DNA of 64,000 nucleotides, taken from the NCBI RefSeq assembly GCF_003610455.1, contig NZ_RAQK01000001.1, forward strand, positions 372,001-436,000, in the 5' to 3' direction. Under the pieces are notes generated by a model. It worked only from the letters and a program-made list of their open reading frames with translations. It did not search any database and was not told the origin of the DNA. Positions within the stretch are counted from its first letter, which is position 1, and each line of letters starts with the position of its first letter. The DNA is from Sulfitobacter guttiformis (GTDB taxonomy: Bacteria > Pseudomonadota > Alphaproteobacteria > Rhodobacterales > Rhodobacteraceae). The position numbers and the translations under genes are program-made. Positions 52,451 through 64,000 of the stretch are shown piece by piece.

Positions 52451-52809
52451 CCTTGACCCTCCGGAAATTGTTAGCTTTTTGATCCAGAGGGAAATTTTTT
52501 GTGAGAAGTGTACCAGTATGAAACAGTTTGTTTCGAAAATTCCCCCTGAAATGTGTCGAAAATCTGTTATCTAAGTGTCGAGGATTAGCTGGATTAGTTT
52601 TCCGGACTATTACAGGGTGGCATGTGCCATCCCACTCAAAAAACTTTCCAACGCCTTCTAAGGGCAGCGGAATCGAGAGACGCTTTAAACGCCATGCCTC
52701 TTCTGCCTTGGGAGGCCCCCGTTAAACCGATTCTCGCGAGATAAAAGAGGCCCCGGATGTACCGGAGTGTCTGTGCAGAATGCTACATGACCCTTGGGGG
52801 TTTTGGACT
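52451..52809. other. Leader/control region of the exopolysaccharide cluster
   Basis: There are 359 bases between tRNA-Glu and the priming transferase gene. The first part is AT-rich. A hairpin GGGTGGCA-TG-TGCCATCC lies at 52615-52632, followed by CAAAAAACTTT. A palindrome CTCGCGAG occurs near 52732. No protein-like reading frame is convincing. It probably carries the promoter and an untranslated leader for the plus-strand genes. Confidence 0.5.
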
Positions 52810-53583
52810 ATGAAGAAATTTGATGCGGATCAGCCCGGTTACGGCTTGAGAAGACTTGCTTCGGCAACGTGTGACACGACGGTGCAAGGAATGCTTGCCC
52901 GTGCATCCGACCCGTTTTTCATCCTGCCCGATCAGACTGTAGCTCCGGCAACGCGTCCTGCGCAGATCGCAGGCAGTGTATATCGCAATGGTGGAAAGCG
53001 GTTGCTCGAGACGGTACTCGTCGTGCTGAGTCTTCCATTCTTTTTGCCAATAATGGCGGTGTGCATGATTGCGCTGTGGGTCGAAGGCGGAAACCCATTC
53101 TATCGCCAGGACCGTTTGGGCCGCAACGGCGAGCGCTTTTCGATATTGAAGTTGCGCACGATGGTGCGCGACGCCGATGCGGTCCTAGAAGATTACCTCG
53201 CGAGCGATCCCGAAATGCGCCGCGAGTGGGACGAGAAACAGAAGTTAATCCATGACCCTCGCGTTACCCGCGTTGGTGCATTCCTGCGCTCGTCTTCGGT
53301 CGATGAGCTGCCGCAGTTGTGGAACGTTCTGACCGGCGAGATGAGCCTGATCGGCCCACGCCCGATGATGCCTGAACAGCTCCCGATGTACGGTAATCCG
53401 GCGCATTACTTTGCGCTGCGTCCCGGCATAACCGGTCTGTGGCAAATCTCTGCCCGCAATGAAAACCGCTTTTCGTTCCGCAACGAGGTTGATGCGACTT
53501 ATAACGAAGGCCTTTCTGTTGCAGGCGACGTTGGGATCATCTTCAAAACTGTTGGTGTGATGCTGCGCCGTACAGGCTGCTGA
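52810..53583 (+). CDS. Undecaprenyl-phosphate sugar-1-phosphate transferase (ExoY/WcaJ C-terminal type)
   Basis: The 257-residue protein carries an N-terminal cytoplasmic stretch of about 60 residues and one membrane hairpin (LLETVLVVLSLPFFLPIMAVCMIALW). The bacterial sugar transferase domain follows with FSILKLRTM (about residues 111-118), SSVDELPQLWNVLTGEMSLIGPRP, and LRPGITGLWQISAR. The family transfers a hexose-1-phosphate to undecaprenyl phosphate and so starts the repeat unit. It is of the short ExoY type, without the large five-helix N-terminal part. A start ten codons earlier is possible. Confidence 0.9.
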   Translation: MKKFDADQPGYGLRRLASATCDTTVQGMLARASDPFFILPDQTVAPATRPAQIAGSVYRNGGKRLLETVLVVLSLPFFLPIMAVCMIALWVEGGNPFYRQDRLGRNGERFSILKLRTMVRDADAVLEDYLASDPEMRREWDEKQKLIHDPRVTRVGAFLRSSSVDELPQLWNVLTGEMSLIGPRPMMPEQLPMYGNPAHYFALRPGITGLWQISARNENRFSFRNEVDATYNEGLSVAGDVGIIFKTVGVMLRRTGC

Positions 53584-53656
53584 AGCGCTTGGCGAACAAC
53601 GTCTTCTTACGTCGCCTACCTTTGAAACTACACCGACATAGGTTATATTAAAGCCT

Positions 53657-54604
53657 ATGTTCAAAATCCGAAAGTCTGGCACCATGAAGGATACATTTGC
53701 ATCCTCGACCGAAGACCGTGTGGAAGCACGCAGCGATCTGATGGTCCCTGCGCAAGGCAGTTTCACCCGTCCCCGTCGCTTTGCCGAAACTCCGCCAGCG
53801 GAGATAGAAGAAGCCGATGCGGTAATTGAGGCAGGGCCAAAAGCGATCACTGCGCGTCTGGATTCCAATGCAGGCGTGACCGCAACCACGCCTCGCGATC
53901 TGTGGGGTCTTTTGCACGAGCAGGTGCCCGGCACCGACCAGCATATCCTCGCTGGCAGTCAGGCCGAAGAGGATTTCCGCGCGACCGATGTGTCCCGCGC
54001 ATTTGACCTGCTGCGCACGCGCCTTCGCCAAACTGTAAAACAACACGGCTGGGTCAACATTGGCATTGTCTCGCCTACGTCGGGCTGCGGCAATACATTT
54101 ACAGCCGCCAATCTCGCTGCGAGCCTGTCGCGCGTCCCCTCTTCGCGCACCGTCTTGATGGATTTCAACATGCGCACTCCAGGTCTTGCGCAAATGCTAG
54201 ATCTTGATGCATCCGAGACAGGCAATCTGCGCGATTTTCTAGCAGGCGATGTGGCGATCAGCGATTATATTCTCCGCACCAGTGATACCCTTGCGGTTGG
54301 CCTGTGCGCCACGCCGCAAAACGATGCTGCTGAAATCATGCAAGACCCTGCAACCTTGGCCAGCCTTGCGGAGATGCGCGCGGGACTTAACCCCGACATC
54401 GTGTTATTCGATCTGCCCCCTATGCTCACGTTTGATGACACATCCGCCTTTCTGCCACAACTGGACGGCGTTCTGCTCGTCTCCGACGGGACCCGCACCA
54501 TGGCTAAGCATCTGGCCGAGTGCGAGCGTATTCTGGGCGGTCAGGTGCCGCTGCTCGGCGTGATCCTGAACCGCGCGCGCGCCTCCAGCATTGAACGGTT
54601 CTAG
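53657..54604 (+). CDS. CpsD/CapB-like BY-kinase family ATPase with altered Walker A motif
   Basis: The 315-residue protein has a poorly conserved N-terminus of about 105 residues, then a MinD/BY-kinase P-loop domain (FDLLRTRLRQ, WVNIGIVSPTSGCGNTFTAANLAASL). In Walker A the lysine expected after the second glycine is asparagine (N146, codon AAT at 54092-54094). Walker A' reads VLMDFNMRTPG and Walker B IVLFDLPPML. The C-terminus has no tyrosine cluster. BY-kinases govern chain length together with Wzz-type partners, and the Wzz-like gene follows by 143 bases. Loss of the lysine suggests weak or no ATP hydrolysis, so it may be a regulator only. Confidence 0.82.
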   Translation: MFKIRKSGTMKDTFASSTEDRVEARSDLMVPAQGSFTRPRRFAETPPAEIEEADAVIEAGPKAITARLDSNAGVTATTPRDLWGLLHEQVPGTDQHILAGSQAEEDFRATDVSRAFDLLRTRLRQTVKQHGWVNIGIVSPTSGCGNTFTAANLAASLSRVPSSRTVLMDFNMRTPGLAQMLDLDASETGNLRDFLAGDVAISDYILRTSDTLAVGLCATPQNDAAEIMQDPATLASLAEMRAGLNPDIVLFDLPPMLTFDDTSAFLPQLDGVLLVSDGTRTMAKHLAECERILGGQVPLLGVILNRARASSIERF

Positions 54605-54747
54605 CGCTGCCGCGCTCTTCGCGCTTTATGCAGAAGCAAAGACGTCATATAATCGCCTGAATTTATCGGCATTTATTAAAAAATGTCGTCCTTTAGGGCG
54701 ATATGTTCCAATTCAGGGACGATACAGCAGGTTCGAGGCAGGCGACT

Positions 54748-56046
54748 ATGGGTCCCATCTATACTTGGCAGGATTTTATCGACATGACCCGCCGCAGGAT
54801 CGGCGTGATCGCGTTTGTGATCCTCGCAGGCAGCATCGCAGGGCTTTACTGGGCGATGAGCCATGTGCATCTCTACCAGTCTTCGGAAGTTATTCAGATC
54901 GAGCAGCCCAAAATCAACGACGAACTAGCCCGGTCAACCGTCGAAGGCTCCTCGGCGCGCCGTCTCCAGCTGATCCAGCAACAGCTAATGGCGCGCGCCA
55001 GCCTTCAGGAAATCATAGATAAATACAATATTTACAGCAATCTCGCCGCGTTGAAGCCCAGCGAGAAGGTCCAGCTTTTGCGGCAGGCGGTCACGATCAA
55101 CGGCGTTGCTGCTGCGCGCGAGGGCTTTGCAGATGATGGTACCATCTCTGTCCTTACTATCACCGCACAGATGGAACAGGCCCAGCTTGCCCGTGATGTG
55201 GCGCATGAATTCGCCGAGCAAACCCGCAATCTGATGGCCGCACAGCGCCGCGACCAGACCGAACAGACCCTCGCGTTTTTCCAAAATCAGGAACAGGTCG
55301 TTCTGGATAATATCGCCTCCCTCGAGGCCGAGCTTGAGACATATCGCAACGAGAACGACCTAACGGTTGATGGTGGTGTGGAATTCCGCCTTTCGGAGGT
55401 CGCCCAGTTGAACGAGGCAATTCTGGGACTGGACCGCGAGATCATCACCACACAGACGGCCCGAACGCAGATAGATCGCGCGGGTCGCGCCTCTACGGTG
55501 GACCGTGAGGAACGGGCGCTTGATGCAGAACTTCGCACCTTAACGGAACAGCGCAGTCTGCTGGATGCCCGCCGCATTGCCCTGCGTGAGACGATACAGG
55601 GCTCACCGGAGATCCAGCGCGCATTGGCCGATTTTGACCGCCGCATGGAACAGCTGCGCACCCAACTCGAGGTGATTGCGACACGCCGAAACGAGGCGCA
55701 GGTTGGTTTCAATCTCGAAGTCGGTTCGCAGGGTGAGCGGCTGACCACCATCGAAGAAGCACAGGTACCCGATTACCCGATCACAATGAGCAAGAAAAAG
55801 CGCGCTATCATGGGGGCAGCAGCCTCTACCGTTCTCGCATTTGTTATTGCATGGTTGCTGGAGCTGCGCCGTCCCATCATCCGCTCTGCCCGCCAGATGC
55901 AGCGTGAAACCGGCGTGATGCCTGTTGTCTCCATCCCCGAGCTTGCACCGAAATACCAAAGTTCTAAGTGGCGGATGGCCCGCGAAAAGCGGCGCCAGTC
56001 GGGCAAGGCAGGTCGTGCTGCCCGCCTTGAATCGCGCCAGACCTAA
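54748..56046 (+). CDS. Wzz/GumC-family polysaccharide co-polymerase
   Basis: This 432-residue protein has a short cytoplasmic N-terminus (YTWQDFIDMTRRRIGV), the first membrane helix (about 18-37) and a large periplasmic region with long coiled coils (LEAELETYRNEND, QLNEAILGLDREIITTQTARTQI). A second membrane helix near 353-370 and a basic cytoplasmic tail follow. This is the PCP layout that sets polymer chain length. The start at 54748 is the best fit; a longer frame runs further up. Its stop overlaps the convergent flippase stop. Confidence 0.85.
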   Translation: MGPIYTWQDFIDMTRRRIGVIAFVILAGSIAGLYWAMSHVHLYQSSEVIQIEQPKINDELARSTVEGSSARRLQLIQQQLMARASLQEIIDKYNIYSNLAALKPSEKVQLLRQAVTINGVAAAREGFADDGTISVLTITAQMEQAQLARDVAHEFAEQTRNLMAAQRRDQTEQTLAFFQNQEQVVLDNIASLEAELETYRNENDLTVDGGVEFRLSEVAQLNEAILGLDREIITTQTARTQIDRAGRASTVDREERALDAELRTLTEQRSLLDARRIALRETIQGSPEIQRALADFDRRMEQLRTQLEVIATRRNEAQVGFNLEVGSQGERLTTIEEAQVPDYPITMSKKKRAIMGAAASTVLAFVIAWLLELRRPIIRSARQMQRETGVMPVVSIPELAPKYQSSKWRMAREKRRQSGKAGRAARLESRQT

Positions 56047-57389
56047 GTCAGCGCAGAAAGCGCCACGATCGCATCCCAGTGCAGCCATAGGGCAGCAGCA
56101 CCCAGCGCGCCTGCGACCAAGGCGCAGGCCAGATCATGGCGTACGTCCCATGCACCATGGTGCAGCGCCAGCCAGATAATGACCGGATGCGTGGCCAGAT
56201 GCGCAAGCCCGATGCCGATAATCGCACCCGTGATGCCGTAGTAGCTTACTCCGATGAGCAAAAAACCGATCTGGAACACGGCACGACTCGCAGAGACGAC
56301 AAAAAACCGGCGCGAATCTCCCGCTGCCAGTGCCGCTTGATCATAGCTCATGCCAATGACCTGCGGGATCAACGCCACCGCCAGTAATGTCACGATGGCC
56401 CCGCCCGCCCCGTATCGCGGATCGTAGAGCACCTCCACCAGCCAAGGCCCCGCCACAGCCATCGTCAACAGAAGCGCGAGCGTTACCACGCTGATACCAA
56501 AGCGGAGTTTTGCGATCTTGCCCACTTCATCTTTCGCGTCGCGGTAGACGGGGATCATCACCCGCCCTGTCACTGCTGTGCCCAGTTGCATGGCAAATGT
56601 AGCAAGAAAAAAGGCAATATTATAAATGCCGAGGCTCTCGAGGCTGAGGAATTTTCCCAACACAGCACGGTCCCCTTGCGAGGCGAAAAACCAGAAGGCC
56701 GTGCTTAGAAATATCCACTTTCCGAAAGTGACCAGTTCGCGCACTGCCGAGCGTTCCCAGCGAAACCTGTTGGGCGCCCCTGGCAGGTAGACCCATGTCA
56801 GCCCCAATTTCGCCAACGATGTAACAACGCCCCCCAGCACAAGCGCCCAGACCGATTGAAACCACCATGCAAGGGCAACCATAACAGCGATGCCGATGAC
56901 TTGGGCCGCCAGATCAAGAACCGTCAGGCGCCCCATCAGCAAATGGCGGTGCGCCGTCTCGATCCGCGTTGGATTGAAACCTGTGATCAACAGCGCAAGC
57001 GCAGCAACAGGCAAATATGCCGCCAGTTCAGGCGCGTCATAAAATGCGGCAAACGGCACGGCCAGCGCGCTTGCGATACCCCATAAAACCGCGCCTCGTA
57101 TGACCTGAATGCTCCATGCGGTATTGAGAAAATCAGGATCATCACCCCGTTTGCTTTGCGCAATCGACGGTGAAATTCCCACATCGGAAAAAAGCATTAG
57201 CCCTACCGTGACCAGCCCGACCAGCGCCATCATGCCAAAGGCTTCGGGAAAGAGCATTCGCGTCAGGATCAGGTTTGAGGCGAGGCGCAGACCCTGAGAG
57301 CCACCGTAACCGAGCAAGATCCACGAGGTGCTGCGTATCACGCGTGCCATCAAACGCCCGCCTCGCAATTGCTGCAAAAGACCACCCAT
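56043..57389 (-). CDS. Oligosaccharide flippase, Wzx/MOP superfamily
   Basis: The 448-residue polytopic membrane protein has about 12 predicted helices. The family N-terminus (ILLGYGGSQGLRLASNLILTRMLFPEAFGMMALVGL), LARWGFGW-like middle parts and FGKWIFLSTAFWFFASQGDRAVLG are typical of polysaccharide transporters. It flips lipid-linked repeat units across the inner membrane. The ATG at 57389 is kept because relatives have about 15 residues before the first helix; an ATG at 57350 also exists. Confidence 0.88.
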   Translation of the reverse strand: MGGLLQQLRGGRLMARVIRSTSWILLGYGGSQGLRLASNLILTRMLFPEAFGMMALVGLVTVGLMLFSDVGISPSIAQSKRGDDPDFLNTAWSIQVIRGAVLWGIASALAVPFAAFYDAPELAAYLPVAALALLITGFNPTRIETAHRHLLMGRLTVLDLAAQVIGIAVMVALAWWFQSVWALVLGGVVTSLAKLGLTWVYLPGAPNRFRWERSAVRELVTFGKWIFLSTAFWFFASQGDRAVLGKFLSLESLGIYNIAFFLATFAMQLGTAVTGRVMIPVYRDAKDEVGKIAKLRFGISVVTLALLLTMAVAGPWLVEVLYDPRYGAGGAIVTLLAVALIPQVIGMSYDQAALAAGDSRRFFVVSASRAVFQIGFLLIGVSYYGITGAIIGIGLAHLATHPVIIWLALHHGAWDVRHDLACALVAGALGAAALWLHWDAIVALSALT

Positions 57390-57495
57390 TTGCCGTATTT
57401 ATCTCCGGATTTACTGCTACAACCTTGCTAACGCCCCTACCGCGCTTGTGCCAGAGCCAAGGTTGCCGGAATGACACCAGACGAAGGATGCCCCG

Positions 57496-58695
57496 TTGAA
57501 CATCGCTTATATTCTCAACAGCTATCCCCAGCCCAGCCATAGTTTTATCCGCCGCGAAATCCGCGCCCTTGAAGCGCAGGGTCATGTTGTGACACGGCTG
57601 GCGATGCGCGCAGGGGATATGGCGCTGGTCGATACCCAGGATCTGGAGGAGGCCGCCGCGACCCAATATGTGTTGCGCGCAGGTATCACCGCATTGTTGC
57701 ATGCCGTGTTTCAAAACTTTTGTGCCGATCCAAAGCGCTTTGCCCGCGCTCTCAAACTCGCAATTGCCTGTGGCCGCCGTTCCGAGTCCGGTATCCTCAA
57801 ACATCTAATTTATATGGTTGAGGGTGCCTATGTCGTCCAAGTGGCCAGAGCGGCGCAAGCCACACATGCCCACGCCCATTTCGGCACGAATGCGGCAAGT
57901 GTTGCGATGCTTTCGCAGGCTCTTGGTGGCCCGGACTATAGCTTTACCGTGCATGGACCCGAGGAATATGATGCACCGCGGGCCCTGTCATTGGGCACAA
58001 AAGTCCAGCGATCCAAATTTACCGTGGCGATCACCAGTTATGGCCGCAGCCAGCTGAGCCGTTGGGTAGGGCCGGATCATTGGAGCAAGATCAAAGTTGT
58101 CCACTGCGGCATTGATGCCGCCCGCTTCCCCACACCGCACCCTCTGCCCGATGGCAGCATGCGATTTGTAGCCGTCGGACGGTTCGTTGAGCAAAAAGGG
58201 CAATTATTAGCACTCGAGGCGATGTCGGATCTGCTAAAATCACACCCGACATCCCACCTGACCCTGATCGGTGATGGCGAGATGCGCGGCGAAATCGAAG
58301 GCCGGATAACCCATCTGGGCCTTGGCGACCATGTCACCCTGACCGGTTGGCTCGACGAGGACCAATTGTTGGAAGAATTACAAAAAGCGCATGCGCTGGT
58401 CATGCCAAGCTTTGCAGAAGGTCTGCCCATGGTAATTATGGAAGCAATGGCTGCAGGTCGTGTTGTGATCGCCACGTATATTGCTGGCATTCCGGAGTTG
58501 GTGCAGCAGGGCGAAACCGGCTGGTTGGTGCCTGCGGGCGATGCTGGGGCTCTGGCCCAGGCGATGGCGGAAATGGCAGATACCGCGCCACAGGTGCTTG
58601 AGCAGATGACAAAAGCCGCGCGTACGCGCGTGCTGGCCCGCCACGATGTGGACGCCGAGGCTGCAAAACTCGCTGCGCTGATTGCAGCGCCCTAA
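57496..58695 (+). CDS. Glycosyltransferase family 4
   Basis: The 399-residue GT-B-fold enzyme has an N-terminal NIAYILNSYPQPSHSFIRREIRALEAQGH, the donor-binding half with RFVAVGRFVEQKGQLLALEAM, LTLIGDGEMRGEIE, and the acidic EGLPMVIMEAMAAGRVVIATYIAGIPELV motif. It transfers a nucleotide-sugar residue to a lipid-linked acceptor at the cytoplasmic face. The start is a TTG at 57496 with AAGGA 7 bases upstream. It lies between the flippase (divergent) and the GT2 gene (convergent, 4-base stop overlap). Confidence 0.88.
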   Translation: MNIAYILNSYPQPSHSFIRREIRALEAQGHVVTRLAMRAGDMALVDTQDLEEAAATQYVLRAGITALLHAVFQNFCADPKRFARALKLAIACGRRSESGILKHLIYMVEGAYVVQVARAAQATHAHAHFGTNAASVAMLSQALGGPDYSFTVHGPEEYDAPRALSLGTKVQRSKFTVAITSYGRSQLSRWVGPDHWSKIKVVHCGIDAARFPTPHPLPDGSMRFVAVGRFVEQKGQLLALEAMSDLLKSHPTSHLTLIGDGEMRGEIEGRITHLGLGDHVTLTGWLDEDQLLEELQKAHALVMPSFAEGLPMVIMEAMAAGRVVIATYIAGIPELVQQGETGWLVPAGDAGALAQAMAEMADTAPQVLEQMTKAARTRVLARHDVDAEAAKLAALIAAP

Positions 58696-59528
58696 CGACC
58701 CCGCGCCCAACGCTCCTGACGCGAATGGGGCAGGCGCACGGCAATACCAACAAAGGCAAATGCCGAAAAACCTATCGGATCGCGCAGCGCACGCTGCCAC
58801 ATCGGCAGTACATCCTCGGACAGTTGATCATGGTTTGCCCAAAGCGCAGGGTAGAGCGCCTTTACCTCTGCCACACCAATATCCTGACGCCGCCGCACCT
58901 TGATAAGCCGCGATGCTCCTTCAATCATCGGCCAGCGATAGGTGGCGGGGACGCGCACCCGCTCTGACGGGGCGAAGCTGAGACGCACAAAGGTATCATC
59001 CGAGATAATGTCGGGGAATGCGCCCCAGCGCGCGCGCCCTGCCCCGTTCACTGCAAATACGCCGAAGCCGGGTACGCCGTGGGTGCAAAATGGCAGACTT
59101 TCCCAGAAACGCGCGTAGATCCGGGTGAACGCGCTTTGGGCAACAGTTACAACCGGCCCGCCGCTGGCATATCGCGGCACATCCGTCTCAAGGATTTCGG
59201 CAAGCTGTGCAACCAGAAGGGGCGACACGATCACATCTGCATCCACGTAAATACGCGCCGCATGACGCGCCGTGGCATCACCGGCATTGAGTGCACTCAT
59301 CTTCCCGCCCTGCGCAATATCCAGCACGGTGAGGGGCCAGCCCTTGGTCGTAAACCGCGCCTCGTAACCCTGCGCAGTATCCACCGTGGCATCGGTACAG
59401 CCATTGGCCATCACAATCACCTCGACTTGCGCACCGGTTACATCACTGGCCAGCAGCGCCTCGAGGCAAGCCTCGATATACCCGACCTCGTTATGGGCGG
59501 GGATCAGAATACTGCAATCAATACTCAC
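58692..59528 (-). CDS. Glycosyltransferase family 2
   Basis: The 278-residue GT-A enzyme has CSILIPAHNEVGYIEACLEALL, VEVIVMANGCTDATVD, KMSALNAGDATA and the metal-binding IYVDADVIV (DxD-like). The DDTFVRLSFAPSERVRV acceptor region follows. A short hydrophobic stretch near the C-terminus may sit on the membrane. The start is GTG 59528 overlapping the upstream stop in GTGA, so it is the last gene of a tightly coupled minus-strand operon with the SGNH proteins, PPTase and the carrier protein. Confidence 0.87.
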   Translation of the reverse strand: MSIDCSILIPAHNEVGYIEACLEALLASDVTGAQVEVIVMANGCTDATVDTAQGYEARFTTKGWPLTVLDIAQGGKMSALNAGDATARHAARIYVDADVIVSPLLVAQLAEILETDVPRYASGGPVVTVAQSAFTRIYARFWESLPFCTHGVPGFGVFAVNGAGRARWGAFPDIISDDTFVRLSFAPSERVRVPATYRWPMIEGASRLIKVRRRQDIGVAEVKALYPALWANHDQLSEDVLPMWQRALRDPIGFSAFAFVGIAVRLPHSRQERWARGR

Positions 59529-62122
59529 TGTCCGGCCACCAGCGCGTCCCAGCGCGGATTAACGTCGTCCAGATGCCGCAGCGCGCCCCAGCTGCCCCAT
59601 TTGGTGGGAACGTACACATCAGCATAGGCGTTGAACAATCGCCCGCCTGATGCGGCCCACCCCTCCAGCAGCGCGGTATAAAGCGCGCCCATTTGCGGGG
59701 TATAATTGAAATGCTCGAAAAACGCAGCGAGGCGGGGATCATCCACCTGCGCGCCGATACCGACAATATGGGTGCCGCCTTCATACATGATAAGCTCAAG
59801 GCCTGCCGCCGCTGCCACCTGTGCATGATACGGGAAAACCCGCCCCGCCAGATCGCTTATGGTATCCGCATTCTGTCCGCTAACCGATCCGTTCTCGAGC
59901 TCCTGCGCGGCAAGCATTGTGGCGTAATCATATTGTGTGGCTTCGATCCTTTCCTGAAGACCTGCACCCGTTAACCCTTCAGCCTGCGCTGCTTGTGTTG
60001 CGCGCTTAACGCTTTCGTCAAGCCAGCTTTCCATCTGTTCGCCGCGCGCCTCCAGCCCCAGAATGCCGCCGAAATAACCTGTAACGGCATAGGCATCAAA
60101 CGCCTCCACCGGTTTGGGCAGCCCCTCGGCAACGACCAGAGGTGCGTTAAGGATGTTTGCTTCCAACCCGAGCCAGCCAGTCTGGGTCGAGATCACATTG
60201 ACCAGCTTTGCCTGTCCTGCGGCAAACGCCTGCGACCAGATCCGCGCTACATCCGCCGCTCGCATCGCATAAAACTGTGTTCCGACATCCGCCTGCCCCC
60301 AGCGCGCTTGTGCCTGCTCGTCAGCCCAGCGGGTCTGGGCGAACTGGAAATTCCACACCTCGTTCGAATACTCCACGTAAGCGGTGCGCGCAGGATCAAT
60401 CCCACCCTGAACCAGTTTTGCAAAATTGCGCACAAAGGTATCATCGGCGAGATGGGGCATGTTGAACCACGCATTTTTGCCCAGACTGTTGATCAGCGCC
60501 AGCATTACCTCAAGCGGGACACCCTTATGCGCCCAACTGGCGTCAGTGACCAATGGCCGGTCTTCCCATAGCGCCTGGGTCGAGTTGTTGGTCTCCATCC
60601 AGTCCATAAACCGCAGTGTGTCGAACGCAGCCAGCCTGTCAGTCCAGTCGGGATTGAACAGGGCACCGGAGTCAAACAGCGCCAGACGGTCCTCGCGGAC
60701 CACAGTGATGTCACGTATGGGGTTAGCGAGGTTGGTGCGCTGGATGCGCAGCTCCACACTGCCCGGCCCCGGTGTGTAATCGAACTGCACCTCGCCGCGC
60801 GCGTACCTTATGTTTGTCGCACGCCCCGCAGGCTCGATTACACCTGCTCCGTCATAGCGTAGCACATACCGCCCCTGCAAAGACGGAGCCGCCGCCGCCG
60901 GCAAATCTGTGAGGATAAGTGTACCCACCGACACCGCTTCGCGCGGCATGCTACGCACCCAGCCATCCGCGTCGATGTGCCCGCCGGCAACCAGCGCCTC
61001 GTTCTCGATGCCGCCAAACTGGTTTTTGAGATGCCCAAGCCATGGCCGCGCGGTTTTCATCACATCAAGGAAAGGCTGCTGTGCCGCCCAATCCGTCACT
61101 GGCGCAAGGCCAACCGCAATGGCACCCGCTGGCGCTTCGCGGGATGTGGACTGCGGCTGTGGGGCTGGCGTTGCTTGCGTCTGCTCTTGTGTTGGCTCCG
61201 GTTGCGCAGGCTTTGGGGTCAGTGGTTCCTTTGCCTCGGATGCTGGGGGGGAAGGAGGAGCACGAGGTGCGACCGGAGCTGCCGCTGGCGTTACCCGCGG
61301 CGAAGCGTCCGCAATCTCGGCACGCGTGTAGGCTTTAACGGCCTCGAGTGCCACGCGCTGCATCGCGTCGGCCATCTCGGCATCCGGCCCGTCAAACGTC
61401 TGCCCGAACCGGTCTTTTACGGTATGGGGCAATCCTATCGGGCTGGCGCCTGTCAGGATCGCATATTGTACCATCGAGACGAAATAATGCCCCCGCGCAT
61501 TGAGGTGAATATCATCATCAAACACATCGCTGATCGACTGTAGACCTGGCACCTCATCCGCCTCAATCGCATCATCGAGCCGACCCAGCGCCTGACCTGC
61601 GGGAATAAGCTGCACGCGCGAATCCGCACCGGCCTGCCCCTTGCGCAGCAACGCAACGATACTTTCCCAGTCAGCCAGGTTTTCCTGCAAACGCAAGCGC
61701 CATGGCGTATCGGCGTTCTCGTCAAATTCGACCACCTCGCCCGTGCCGCTTTTCAGGCTGTGCCATGTTTCCTGAACAAAAACCCGCGCGTCGCTCTTTC
61801 CGCTCAGGGCCAGCCCTGCAAAGGCCTGCGCATAGATTTCGGTCTCGCTCCATTGCAGGTGATTGGCCAGCGGGATCGCCTCTGTGATAATCAGATCGGT
61901 TGTTTTGCCCTGCGGCAGCACACGGCGGGCATCAATTCCCTGTGCCTCGCTCGACTTCTCCCAGTTATATTTGAGCGGTGCCCCATTGATGATCTGCTCG
62001 CGCACCTCGACCTGCGCACTCGTTTCGCGCAGCGCAGCATCCAGCATGTCCGGGCCGGCGGTTCCAAACAAGCTGTGGCCCACCATAACTACCGAAAATA
62101 ATGTGCTCGCCAGATCGCTCAT
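59525..62122 (-). CDS. Fusion of SGNH-like domain and glycoside-hydrolase-like domain
   Basis: This 865-residue protein has three parts. Residues 1-275 resemble an SGNH hydrolase: GHSLFG (S17), QETWH (117-121) and DDIHLNARGHYF (D203, H206). Residues about 275-335 are a Pro/Ala/Thr/Glu-rich linker. The C-terminal ~525 residues look like a TIM-barrel glycoside hydrolase: YVEYSNEVWN contains an Asn-Glu pair (N586, E587) as in clan GH-A acid/base residues, and IMYEGGTH a second glutamate (E780). The enzyme may trim and deacylate the exopolysaccharide. No clear signal peptide lies before S17, so export is uncertain. Overlaps on both sides (ATGA, GTGA) put it in one operon. Confidence 0.75.
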   Translation of the reverse strand: MSDLASTLFSVVMVGHSLFGTAGPDMLDAALRETSAQVEVREQIINGAPLKYNWEKSSEAQGIDARRVLPQGKTTDLIITEAIPLANHLQWSETEIYAQAFAGLALSGKSDARVFVQETWHSLKSGTGEVVEFDENADTPWRLRLQENLADWESIVALLRKGQAGADSRVQLIPAGQALGRLDDAIEADEVPGLQSISDVFDDDIHLNARGHYFVSMVQYAILTGASPIGLPHTVKDRFGQTFDGPDAEMADAMQRVALEAVKAYTRAEIADASPRVTPAAAPVAPRAPPSPPASEAKEPLTPKPAQPEPTQEQTQATPAPQPQSTSREAPAGAIAVGLAPVTDWAAQQPFLDVMKTARPWLGHLKNQFGGIENEALVAGGHIDADGWVRSMPREAVSVGTLILTDLPAAAAPSLQGRYVLRYDGAGVIEPAGRATNIRYARGEVQFDYTPGPGSVELRIQRTNLANPIRDITVVREDRLALFDSGALFNPDWTDRLAAFDTLRFMDWMETNNSTQALWEDRPLVTDASWAHKGVPLEVMLALINSLGKNAWFNMPHLADDTFVRNFAKLVQGGIDPARTAYVEYSNEVWNFQFAQTRWADEQAQARWGQADVGTQFYAMRAADVARIWSQAFAAGQAKLVNVISTQTGWLGLEANILNAPLVVAEGLPKPVEAFDAYAVTGYFGGILGLEARGEQMESWLDESVKRATQAAQAEGLTGAGLQERIEATQYDYATMLAAQELENGSVSGQNADTISDLAGRVFPYHAQVAAAAGLELIMYEGGTHIVGIGAQVDDPRLAAFFEHFNYTPQMGALYTALLEGWAASGGRLFNAYADVYVPTKWGSWGALRHLDDVNPRWDALVAGQ

Positions 62123-63078
62123 ACTGCTATCCCAGTGTATTTATTGGCACGTACCACGTCCCAAACTATTTCCTGCATAAGTGCCCCCGCTTGCGGGTCC
62201 GGTGCTTGCGCCGCCGTGCCATCCGCACGCATCAATGCCAATGGCAGGCCGAGCGGACTGCGCTGGTAGAGCACTGCAAAATGCGTGAGCGCTATGAGAT
62301 AGCCTCCGAGATCGCTCAGGTGGATCGTATCCACTGCCCCCTCCGGCGTGCGGGCCATCAGGGCATCGCGGTTCGCAATATTGCCAACACCGCCCTGCGC
62401 CTCGATGGCGCGCACAAACGCGGCCAGCACCTGACCTCCCGGCACAATATAGATCGGCGCACCGATACGCCCCGCCGCAGGCAGTGCCACGCGTTCCATC
62501 CAGAGCGCCTCGAAATCGGTATCGATCCGGTTGAGCCAACCTGCCGGATCATCGGTGTTATGCCATGTCTCGTAAAGATAAAGGCGCACATCAGGCCGCG
62601 CCTCCCGCGCCAGACCGGCCCAGCGCGCCAGATAAGCGGCACTGTCGTGATAGCGGATTGCATCGGTCAACTCTACCATCTCTGTCAGGACGACTGCATC
62701 GAACCCTGCTCCCTCCAGCGCATCGCGGGCGGGCAAAAAATTCTCATGGTCGTTCTCGGTATCGAATCCGTTCACAGGAACATCCGGCTCCCAATGGGCG
62801 CGAAGCGGTGTGCCCCATCCAAGCTGACTGCGAAAATCATGATCCACAGGCGCAAGTTGCGCCACCATCGCAGGCATATCGCGCCCAACCAGAGAATGGC
62901 CAAGGTGAAATACTCTCAGCGGCCCGTCAGGGGCCGGCAGAGCCTGCCCGTAGCTTTTGCGCGCTTGCGCCAGGCGCCACACCCGCGTGCCTGCAAGCCC
63001 TGCCATCGCAGCGCCCAGACCCACCAGCGCGCCCGCGCCTGCCCGCACTATGCCCCGACGTGTCAGCAATTCGTCCAC
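62119..63078 (-). CDS. SGNH-like protein with Tat-type signal, paralogue of the following gene's N-terminal domain
   Basis: The 319-residue protein starts with a twin-arginine-like leader (TRRGIVRAGAGALVGLGAAMAG). An SGNH-like domain follows: LGHSLVG (S62), YETWH (169-173) and VDTIHLSDLGGY (D250, H253). The same three motifs occur with the same spacing in the next gene's N-terminal domain. An acyl-esterase or acyltransferase acting on the polysaccharide in the periplasm is likely but inferred. The first codon is GTG 63078; a TTG three codons later has AGGAG at better spacing (8 bases) and may be the true start. Confidence 0.75.
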   Translation of the reverse strand: MDELLTRRGIVRAGAGALVGLGAAMAGLAGTRVWRLAQARKSYGQALPAPDGPLRVFHLGHSLVGRDMPAMVAQLAPVDHDFRSQLGWGTPLRAHWEPDVPVNGFDTENDHENFLPARDALEGAGFDAVVLTEMVELTDAIRYHDSAAYLARWAGLAREARPDVRLYLYETWHNTDDPAGWLNRIDTDFEALWMERVALPAAGRIGAPIYIVPGGQVLAAFVRAIEAQGGVGNIANRDALMARTPEGAVDTIHLSDLGGYLIALTHFAVLYQRSPLGLPLALMRADGTAAQAPDPQAGALMQEIVWDVVRANKYTGIAV

Positions 63079-63085
63079 TCCTCTT

Positions 63086-63787
63086 TCAACTGTTGGGTGC
63101 TTGTAGGTCAGAGTGCCTAATCGCGACCCCCGTTACAAGCAAGCCAACCGCATGGGCATAGCTCCCGTGTAGAACCGTGCCCGCGGCAAAAGGGCCTTGG
63201 TCGCATCGGAAGTAAGCTTTAAACCGGTTGTCGCTCCGATCAATCTCCAGTTCAAGCACCTCGAACCCGAACAACCTGCCCGAAACGTTATATTGCGCCT
63301 TATAGGTTGCTTCCTTGGCGGAGAAAATGAGCTTTGCCATAAGCCCCCGCTCCGAGGCCGGTTGCAGCCCCAGCCAGACGCGCTCCGCCCTTGTGCACAC
63401 CACGGCAACGGACAGCGGATCCAGCGGGGTCGCCTCTTCCAGATCGACACCGATGCCTGCCCAATCAGCCGACATCCCCACTGCTGCAACGCAGGCGGTC
63501 TTGGAGTGTGAGATGCTACCCGTAATTCCCGCAGGCCAGACCGGGGACCGGTCAGCCGCCATTTCAACAGACTGTATTGCCACCGAAAGCGATGTCATCG
63601 CCGCCCGCGCAGCACTACGCCCCGCGTGAAACTCGCATTTGCGATGGTCCACGGCCTGCGCCAGTGCCGCCGCCTCGGTCTTGTCCACATCATCCGGCAT
63701 CACGGTCGGGTCCCGCGCTGCAACCCCCAGACCTGTCGGCAAAACCGACCGTGTGAGTGCGCAGACCAATGCGGGGTCAAGGCTCAC
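63086..63787 (-). CDS. 4'-phosphopantetheinyl transferase (Sfp/EntD type)
   Basis: This 233-residue enzyme transfers phosphopantetheine from CoA to a serine of carrier proteins. It has KCEFHAGRSAARAAM, ITGSISHSK, GIGVDLEE (magnesium site, residues 112-118) and FSAKEATYKAQY (155-166), the usual Sfp-type motifs. The start is GTG 63787 overlapping the stop of the carrier-protein gene (GTGA), so its partner is almost certainly that carrier. It lies 7 bases before the SGNH gene. Confidence 0.92.
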   Translation of the reverse strand: MSLDPALVCALTRSVLPTGLGVAARDPTVMPDDVDKTEAAALAQAVDHRKCEFHAGRSAARAAMTSLSVAIQSVEMAADRSPVWPAGITGSISHSKTACVAAVGMSADWAGIGVDLEEATPLDPLSVAVVCTRAERVWLGLQPASERGLMAKLIFSAKEATYKAQYNVSGRLFGFEVLELEIDRSDNRFKAYFRCDQGPFAAGTVLHGSYAHAVGLLVTGVAIRHSDLQAPNS

Positions 63788-64000
63788 GAACCGGCCTTGA
63801 CCCGACCTGCGCGCATCGCACGGCGTTTAGACATCGTTTCAGACCTCGCCGGATCATCCTGCACGTCGATCTCTGGCTCCGCAGGCGCTTTGCCTTTGTC
63901 CAGGTGTGCCGCCAGACCTTCCAACGTAGGGAACCGGAAAATATCGGTAATCCCCAGCTTGTCCAGCCCCAGCGCCGCCTTGATATCGCGGTGCGCTTGC
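63784..64000 (-). CDS. Carrier-protein domain C-terminus of an NRPS/PKS-like protein, truncated by the window edge
   Basis: The last ~71 residues are visible (frame open to base 64000). They begin with AHRDIKAALGLDKLGITDIFRFPTLEGLAAHLDKG, the C-terminal half of a phosphopantetheine-binding (ACP/PCP) domain: the ITDIFRFPTL helix follows the modified serine, which lies outside the window. A tail of about 40 residues, basic at the end (MSKRRAMRAGRVKAGS), follows. What precedes the carrier domain (adenylation or other) cannot be seen. The overlap with the PPTase gene indicates one operon. Confidence 0.8.
   Translation of the reverse strand, partial: QAHRDIKAALGLDKLGITDIFRFPTLEGLAAHLDKGKAPAEPEIDVQDDPARSETMSKRRAMRAGRVKAGS

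Follow-up and report, generated by a model that had tools for sequence, protein, structure and literature searches.

In a 64,000-nucleotide stretch of the Sulfitobacter guttiformis genome (the window; bases 372001-436000 of contig 1 in a 3.98-Mb genome) and in the neighbouring sequence past base 64000, read in the same genome with window-equivalent coordinates that continue the numbering, we found a natural-product assembly line within an exopolysaccharide (EPS) locus of the Wzx/Wzy type. The line consists of a non-ribosomal peptide synthetase (NRPS) and a polyketide synthase (PKS), accompanied by a glycosyltransferase, GT2b, and a 4'-phosphopantetheinyl transferase (PPTase). We propose, with a probability of about one half, that this NRPS-PKS line makes a short acyl unit that is built into the polysaccharide repeat. 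That the line has some function in the EPS pathway seems likely to us (roughly three chances in four); the odds are about even that the product ends up bonded to the repeat unit as a small acyl group. We put forward a fuller account more tentatively, at a little short of even odds: a modular synthase, served by a dedicated glycosyltransferase, flippase and polymerase, would make a formylglycine-derived, oxidised C4 acyl group on the repeat; the system would occur in roughly a third of the Rhodobacteraceae genera sampled and would have been passed to Hydrogenophaga. Many marine relatives of Sulfitobacter carry such a line in their EPS gene cluster, which suggests that what they make is an uncommon chemical modification of the polymer and not a free small molecule.

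Polysaccharide genes lie on both flanks of the NRPS-PKS block, so that the natural-product genes are embedded within EPS genes. The locus contains the following genes, those from GT2b onwards lying outside the window:

52780..53583, plus strand: priming sugar-phosphate transferase with a WbaP-like C-terminal domain (Bac_transf PF02397, E 1.9e-54; WbaP model 264.6 of 403 bits, below cut-off)
53657..54604, plus strand: ATPase resembling bacterial tyrosine kinases (BY-kinases; tyrosine autokinase models, all matches below Pfam/NCBIfam cut-offs)
54703..56046, plus strand: Wzz-like chain-length protein (XrtA chain-length model, E 3.7e-19, below cut-off)
56043..57389, minus strand: Wzx-like flippase (Polysacc_synt_3, E 1.8e-48)
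57496..58695, plus strand: GT4 glycosyltransferase (Glycos_transf_1, E 1.9e-37)
58692..59528, minus strand: GT2a, a GT2 glycosyltransferase (Glycos_transf_2, E 6.1e-17)
59525..62122, minus strand: 865-aa fusion of an SGNH and a glycoside hydrolase (GH)-like domain (motifs, model, fold matches)
62119..63078, minus strand: 319-aa SGNH protein (motifs, model, fold matches)
63086..63787, minus strand: PPTase (4PPT_N PF17837, E 1.9e-20; ACPS PF01648, E 2.2e-10)
63784-68262 (G000:C1:435784-440262), minus strand: NRPS, 1492 aa (Pfam; NCBIfam TIGR04020, 469.6 bits)
68259 to a start within 69233-69350, minus strand: GT2b, a GT2 glycosyltransferase
69238-75639, minus strand: PKS, KS-AT-KR-DH-ACP-TE (Pfam)
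75921-77396, minus strand: Wzy-like protein, 491 aa (position, and hydrophobic sequence judged by eye)
77575-78321, plus strand: WecG/TagA-like glycosyltransferase
78323-79264, minus strand: GT2 glycosyltransferase
79261-80307, minus strand: GT2 glycosyltransferase

The Wzy-like protein matched no Pfam or NCBIfam model. Of the NRPS, the window holds only the residues after about 1420, and its phosphopantetheine serine (residue 1417) is just beyond the edge. A sequence-only reading of the window had named the polysaccharide genes, the PPTase and the SGNH-like pair, and all of them are where it placed them, the BY-kinase-like and Wzz-like calls being weak (below cut-offs). It had also described a carrier protein; the carrier domain is real, but it is the last domain of the 1492-aa NRPS, with a PKS gene nearby, and not a separate protein. 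Its view that carrier, PPTase and EPS genes belong together holds up, given EPS genes on both sides and a conserved gene set. Past base 64000 the locus continues with the NRPS, GT2b, PKS, Wzy-like protein and more glycosyltransferases, and no siderophore or lipopeptide cluster runs away from the EPS genes.

What most strongly ties the assembly line to the polysaccharide pathway is its phylogenetic profile across 149 Rhodobacteraceae genomes. We classed 54 of the 149 by hand as NRPS-positive, which is about a third of the genera sampled in the family; the fragmentary G118, G085 and G097 were counted in, and G144 (41-44% identity, different cluster), G022 and G147 (both partial and divergent) were not. 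Relatives of the Wzx-like flippase occur in 53 of the 54 NRPS-positive genomes versus 4 of the 95 others, and relatives of the Wzy-like protein in 53 of 54 versus 6 of 95. GT2b relatives were found in all 54 NRPS-positive genomes and in 6 of the 95 others, a stricter cut giving 53 of 54 versus 0 of 95. The Wzx gene is present even in genomes where it lies elsewhere, for example G055 and G034. In five NRPS-negative genomes (G077, G080, G092, G104 and G137) distant relatives of GT2b and Wzy share a contig, and G080, G092 and G137 also have Wzx. These five apparently hold a sister EPS system that lacks the assembly line, and GT2b would by origin be an EPS glycosyltransferase.

Physical linkage was followed in two sets of loci. 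In the family scan we searched for the NRPS in the 149 genomes and tested the neighbourhoods of its clear matches with 16 cluster proteins by tblastn, taking the priming glycosyltransferase, BY-kinase, Wzz, Wzx, Wzy and WecG as EPS markers. This yielded 60 NRPS loci from 57 genomes. PKS, GT2b and NRPS occurred together in 53 of the 60, contiguous and on one strand in 52 of those 53, and at least one EPS marker was present in 55. Among loci of at least 35 kb, with G144 set apart, all three genes and an EPS marker were found in 49 of 49, at least three markers in 47, and EPS or glycosyltransferase genes on both sides in 38. The second set, the best 80 of at least 560 relatives with flanks of up to 10 kb, had PKS, GT2b and NRPS together in 79 loci, the PPTase adjacent to the NRPS in 78, an EPS marker in the flanks of 76, at least two markers in 71, a marker with 40% identity or more in 70 and relatives of the Wzz-like protein in 57. 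The conservation across genomes that the sequence-only reading had looked for is thus evident (79/80, and 49/49 long loci). The window's first 50 kb served as the single control stretch, and at E 1e-10 none of the 16 cluster proteins had a match there. Because the same genes recur jointly across dozens of genera, their association exceeds chance. Two genomes have two NRPS-PKS/EPS loci each (G126 on contigs C6 and C47, G132 on C142 and C72), and gene order differs at G126 C47.

Pfam and NCBIfam matches give the domain order of the NRPS as a formyltransferase (FT), about 200 residues, an adenylation (A) domain with an inserted luciferase-like monooxygenase (LLM), and a peptidyl carrier protein (PCP). 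The monooxygenase, of the TIGR04020 (MupA/Atu3671) type, spans residues 737-1087, between FDIS (696-699) and NMYGPTE (from 1167), that is, between A4 and A5. By sequence, the closest solved structures are linear gramicidin synthetase for the NRPS and PuwE for the monooxygenase. We compared 81 NRPS sequences (the window NRPS, 78 from the 80-locus collection, L287 and L288), L245 and L255 having been dropped from the 82-sequence set by a length filter. FT residues N97, H99 and D135, the PCP serine and most specificity positions were kept in all 81, and the FT motif was kept in 25 of 26 NRPS sequences from the family genomes. The HHxxxDG condensation motif was found in none of 82 NRPS sequences, as expected of a starter module. 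The A-domain code reads DILS[M/L/F/V]GM[I/V]WK across the 81 sequences; the signature of glycine A domains is DILQLGLIWK. Three NRPS frames (G111:C58, G144:C1 and G805:C1) each have one internal stop codon, perhaps from sequencing error or decay.

The monooxygenases of the myxothiazol and melithiazol pathways sit inside glycine-recruiting A domains, between A4 and A5, where they hydroxylate the glycine alpha carbon, leading to cleavage and a glyoxyl thioester (PMC10204066, PMC11342130; excerpts). Applied to the NRPS described here, this chemistry suggests a formylglycine-derived starter that would be extended once by the PKS. The PKS contains ketosynthase (KS), acyltransferase (AT), ketoreductase (KR), dehydratase (DH), acyl carrier protein (ACP) and thioesterase (TE) domains by Pfam, with the DH placed after the KR; no enoyl reductase (ER) was recognised by Pfam at E 0.01 in the PKS of the window genome. 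The motifs of all six domains were intact in 25 of 25 PKS sequences of 1900-2300 aa. The nearest PDB entries by sequence are 8xju and 8xjy, and 8xjz pairs a PKS chain of this kind with a peptide synthetase.

Computation shows which genes are present, how their domains are arranged, that catalytic residues are kept and that the genes are linked and co-occur; from this we infer a possible pathway. The PPTase would arm the carriers, the A domain would load a small amino acid, most likely glycine, and the FT would formylate it. The inserted FMN monooxygenase would then hydroxylate the alpha carbon, leaving an N-formyl-hydroxyglycyl group or, after C-N cleavage, a glyoxylyl group on the carrier. 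The KS of the PKS may accept this starter for one extension with malonyl-CoA, after which KR and DH would give a four-carbon unsaturated or hydroxy acyl group that the TE could pass on to a sugar precursor or a lipid-linked intermediate, at an amino or hydroxyl position. On the polysaccharide side, the priming transferase would take the first step of repeat assembly and GT2b would add the next or the decorated sugar; the dedicated Wzx would flip the repeat, the Wzy would polymerise it, and Wzz and the BY-kinase would set chain length. SGNH proteins, where present, may trim the polymer's acyl groups or relocate them.

Several observations weigh against this proposal. Linkage and profile tie the assembly line to the EPS pathway and not its product to the polymer by a bond. 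No obvious sugar N-acylation gene was identified among the scanned locus proteins, which leaves attachment to the TE or another enzyme, and TE domains of this family usually yield free acids or rings. The genes stand in the operon as PKS-GT2b-NRPS, which differs from the order of assembly, the A-domain code departs from the glycine signature at three positions, and the NRPS on contig 6 of G126 has lost the FT His and Asp, so that formylation may be dispensable there. The linkage also has exceptions: four of the 80 loci (L201, L221, L241 and L242) have no EPS marker in their flanks and ten have none of at least 40% identity, five of the 60 family-scan loci (G144 and four stretches of 3.7-21 kb) have no marker, and 11 of the 49 long loci have EPS or glycosyltransferase genes on one side only within the available stretch. 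Markers in the Hydrogenophaga loci described below are weak (26-37% identity). Drawn as the best of at least 560 relatives, the 80 loci lean to close relatives; the 149 genomes of the profile are kin, not independent samples, and Fisher p-values overstate their independence. G147, which has divergent NRPS fragments, carries Wzx, Wzy, a GT2b relative and SGNH, and as classed it counts against the profile. In G144, the one comparison locus of this kind that we read, the 41-44% identical NRPS lies inside a large NRPS/PKS cluster with no EPS markers; an NRPS of this type can therefore work in other pathways.

The G144 cluster also bears on the first alternative, which we consider unlikely: that the NRPS-PKS makes a free small molecule, such as a signal, chelator or adhesive, that is co-regulated with the EPS and stays in the matrix, possibly carrying a sugar added by GT2b, without being bonded to the polymer. 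The terminal TE domain fits a released product, and genome papers class such clusters as secondary metabolism (PMC10221251, PMC4062626; excerpts). However, relatives of the flippase and polymerase are almost confined to NRPS-positive genomes, even those with Wzx elsewhere, and the usual natural-product transporter was not recognised among the scanned locus proteins.

Somewhat less probable again, in our view, is that the line supplies the polysaccharide with a lipid or acyl anchor or with a special carrier, in the manner of rkpA/wcbR. The PKS could act iteratively, and PKS genes are known from capsule clusters, the type I PKS genes rkpA/wcbR lying within capsular polysaccharide clusters of Rhizobium/Sinorhizobium and Burkholderia (PMC3908369, PMC7902896; excerpts). 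Yet no ER domain is among the PKS matches, an NRPS with FT and monooxygenase domains is not expected for a fatty anchor, and the Wzx/Wzy-like genes would imply an undecaprenyl-linked route.

A different route to an acylated polymer had been suggested by the sequence-only reading, which centred on the two SGNH-like proteins. Its description of an SGNH-like pair, one member fused to a GH-like domain, agrees with motifs, models and folds, the GH matches being weak. Neither the 865-aa nor the 319-aa protein had a Pfam match at E 0.1 or an NCBIfam match at E 0.01, and their assignment is based on motifs, structure models and fold matches. In the model of the fusion (m3ca6f333deed, mean pLDDT 76), an SGNH region (about 1-270) and a GH clan-A-like region (about 330-865) are joined by a disordered linker. 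Weak Foldseek matches link the SGNH half to GDSL esterases and the GH-like half to TIM-barrel glycosidases of GH10, GH39 and GH5 (three at E <=0.001, best 6.7e-5). The SNE and YEGG glutamates were kept in 19 of 19 fusion sequences of 800-1000 aa (26 extracted). The 319-aa protein matches the folds of GDSL and carbohydrate esterases, and has the SGNH catalytic Ser and D..H pair in 18 of 18 family sequences. Export, which had been proposed for both, looks probable for one. A twin-arginine motif occurs in 103 of 115 full-length sequences of the 319-aa protein among its 120 best homologues, and this protein is probably anchored by the twin-arginine translocation (Tat) system and periplasmic. Of 113 full-length sequences among the fusion's own 120 best homologues, 112 have the serine block beginning at residue 13-14, too early to leave room for a signal peptide; of the pair, only the 319-aa protein looks exported.

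The SGNH genes proved to be an add-on to a conserved block of PKS, GT2b, NRPS and PPTase. GT2a travels with the SGNH pair, adjoining these genes at four separate sites read (G121, G135, G034 and G026). Co-occurrence of the 319-aa SGNH gene with the NRPS, as the sequence-only reading had expected, is seen in part: the gene tracks the NRPS (32 of 54 NRPS-positive versus 1 of 95 other genomes) but, unmatched in 22 of the 54, is not a fixed part of the set. Known O-acetylation systems pair an SGNH protein with a membrane acyl-transfer partner, MBOAT or AT3, and the proteins scanned in the window locus included neither. An AT3-SGNH acyltransferase (L087:2552-4579 and relatives) occurs in 12 of 29 SGNH-negative versus 1 of 20 SGNH-positive long loci (Fisher p 0.007) and apparently replaces the SGNH pair, yet this pattern may stem from two lineages only. 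Transfer of a carrier-borne fatty-acyl or aminoacyl group to the polymer by exported SGNH proteins is thus very improbable as written, since the SGNH genes are an add-on, the fusion has no apparent signal peptide, the NRPS gene is accompanied by a PKS gene, and a cytoplasmic carrier would need a membrane partner to reach a periplasmic enzyme.

Genes of the assembly line also occur beyond the family. In a sample of 398 genomes across the phylum, near-full-length matches to the NRPS profile were found in ten family genomes and in G766, G658, G430 and G805, which belong to other alphaproteobacterial families. In the G766 locus (L287), PKS, NRPS and PPTase are 46-48% identical and differently arranged, with weakly similar Wzx-, glycosyltransferase- and SGNH-like neighbours (25-32% identity). 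In G430 (L288), the NRPS and PKS lie beside an epimerase and a DegT-type aminotransferase, neighbours that suggest an amino-sugar pathway. Three Hydrogenophaga records (L206, L208 and L216) contain PKS, GT2b and NRPS at 51-62% identity and a PPTase at 37-41%. Their NRPSs nest inside Rhodobacteraceae in the NRPS tree with support of 0.95-1.0, which points to arrival of the block in Hydrogenophaga by horizontal transfer. The SGNH gene was present in 4 of 385 genomes of a class-wide sample, all from Rhodobacteraceae, and outside the class in two of the three Hydrogenophaga loci (L206 and L216, 51-55% identity).

Directly past the EPS locus of S. guttiformis, an H-NOX (haem NO-binding) gene overlaps a GGDEF diguanylate cyclase gene (window-equivalent 81092-82731; L003:11093-12732, minus strand), a possible nitric-oxide/c-di-GMP switch beside the EPS genes. 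A further gene encodes an MTTB-family (trimethylamine methyltransferase) protein (window-equivalent 82791-84350; L003:12792-14351, minus strand; Pfam E 1.2e-214).

Roseobacters are abundant bacteria that colonise surfaces and partner with algae. If the proposal is correct, modular natural-product synthases that decorate polysaccharide would represent a new route and a new class of glycan decoration, and what genome miners record as an orphan secondary-metabolite cluster would be a polysaccharide pathway. The search for its product would shift from culture extracts to purified EPS, and the PKS, NRPS and GT2b genes would offer a genetic handle on the chemistry of marine biofilm matrices. It would also serve as a warning that a diffusible compound cannot be presumed wherever assembly-line genes occur.

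Among the titles and abstract openings listed for open-licence papers, and in excerpts of PMC4062626, PMC4359443, PMC11278168, PMC4148975 and PMC10221251, we found nothing tying an NRPS-PKS to a roseobacter EPS locus, which is not proof of absence. A 'T1PKS-NRPS-like hybrid cluster' of Sulfitobacter faviae and the PKS/NRPS genes Inhi_1972/Inhi_1974 of Phaeobacter inhibens are described as secondary metabolism (PMC10221251, PMC4062626; excerpts). The P. inhibens numbering puts one gene between PKS and NRPS, as here, and both clusters, matched by description or numbering, are possibly the same genes; unlike our account, the excerpted descriptions do not mention an EPS context. Other likenesses are to known polysaccharide loci and known enzymes. 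The BY-kinase, Wzz-like protein and priming transferase match models associated with XrtA/PEP-CTERM EPS loci below cut-off, but no exosortase was recognised among the locus proteins in the Pfam and NCBIfam scans, and to our knowledge the carrier-type genes of XrtA loci are not NRPS-PKS. LgrA of linear gramicidin synthesis, the best PDB match by sequence, likewise has an N-terminal FT with Asn-His-Asp fused to A-PCP and no condensation motif; here, in contrast, a monooxygenase sits in the A domain, about 200 residues without HHxxxDG separate FT and A, and the partner gene is a PKS. The insertion of a monooxygenase between A4 and A5 is shared with the glycine A domains of myxothiazol and melithiazol synthesis and with the TIGR04020 type of MupA/Atu3671, whereas here it lies behind an FT, in a protein without a condensation motif, with a PKS alongside and in an EPS locus. 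The rkp system has a fatty-acid-synthase-like domain set that includes an ER, and is not known to include an NRPS. Like rkpA/wcbR, the PKS described here is a type I gene inside a surface-polysaccharide locus (49 of 49 long loci, G144 set apart), but it has no recognised ER and is joined to an NRPS, GT2b and a PPTase, together with Wzx/Wzy-like genes.

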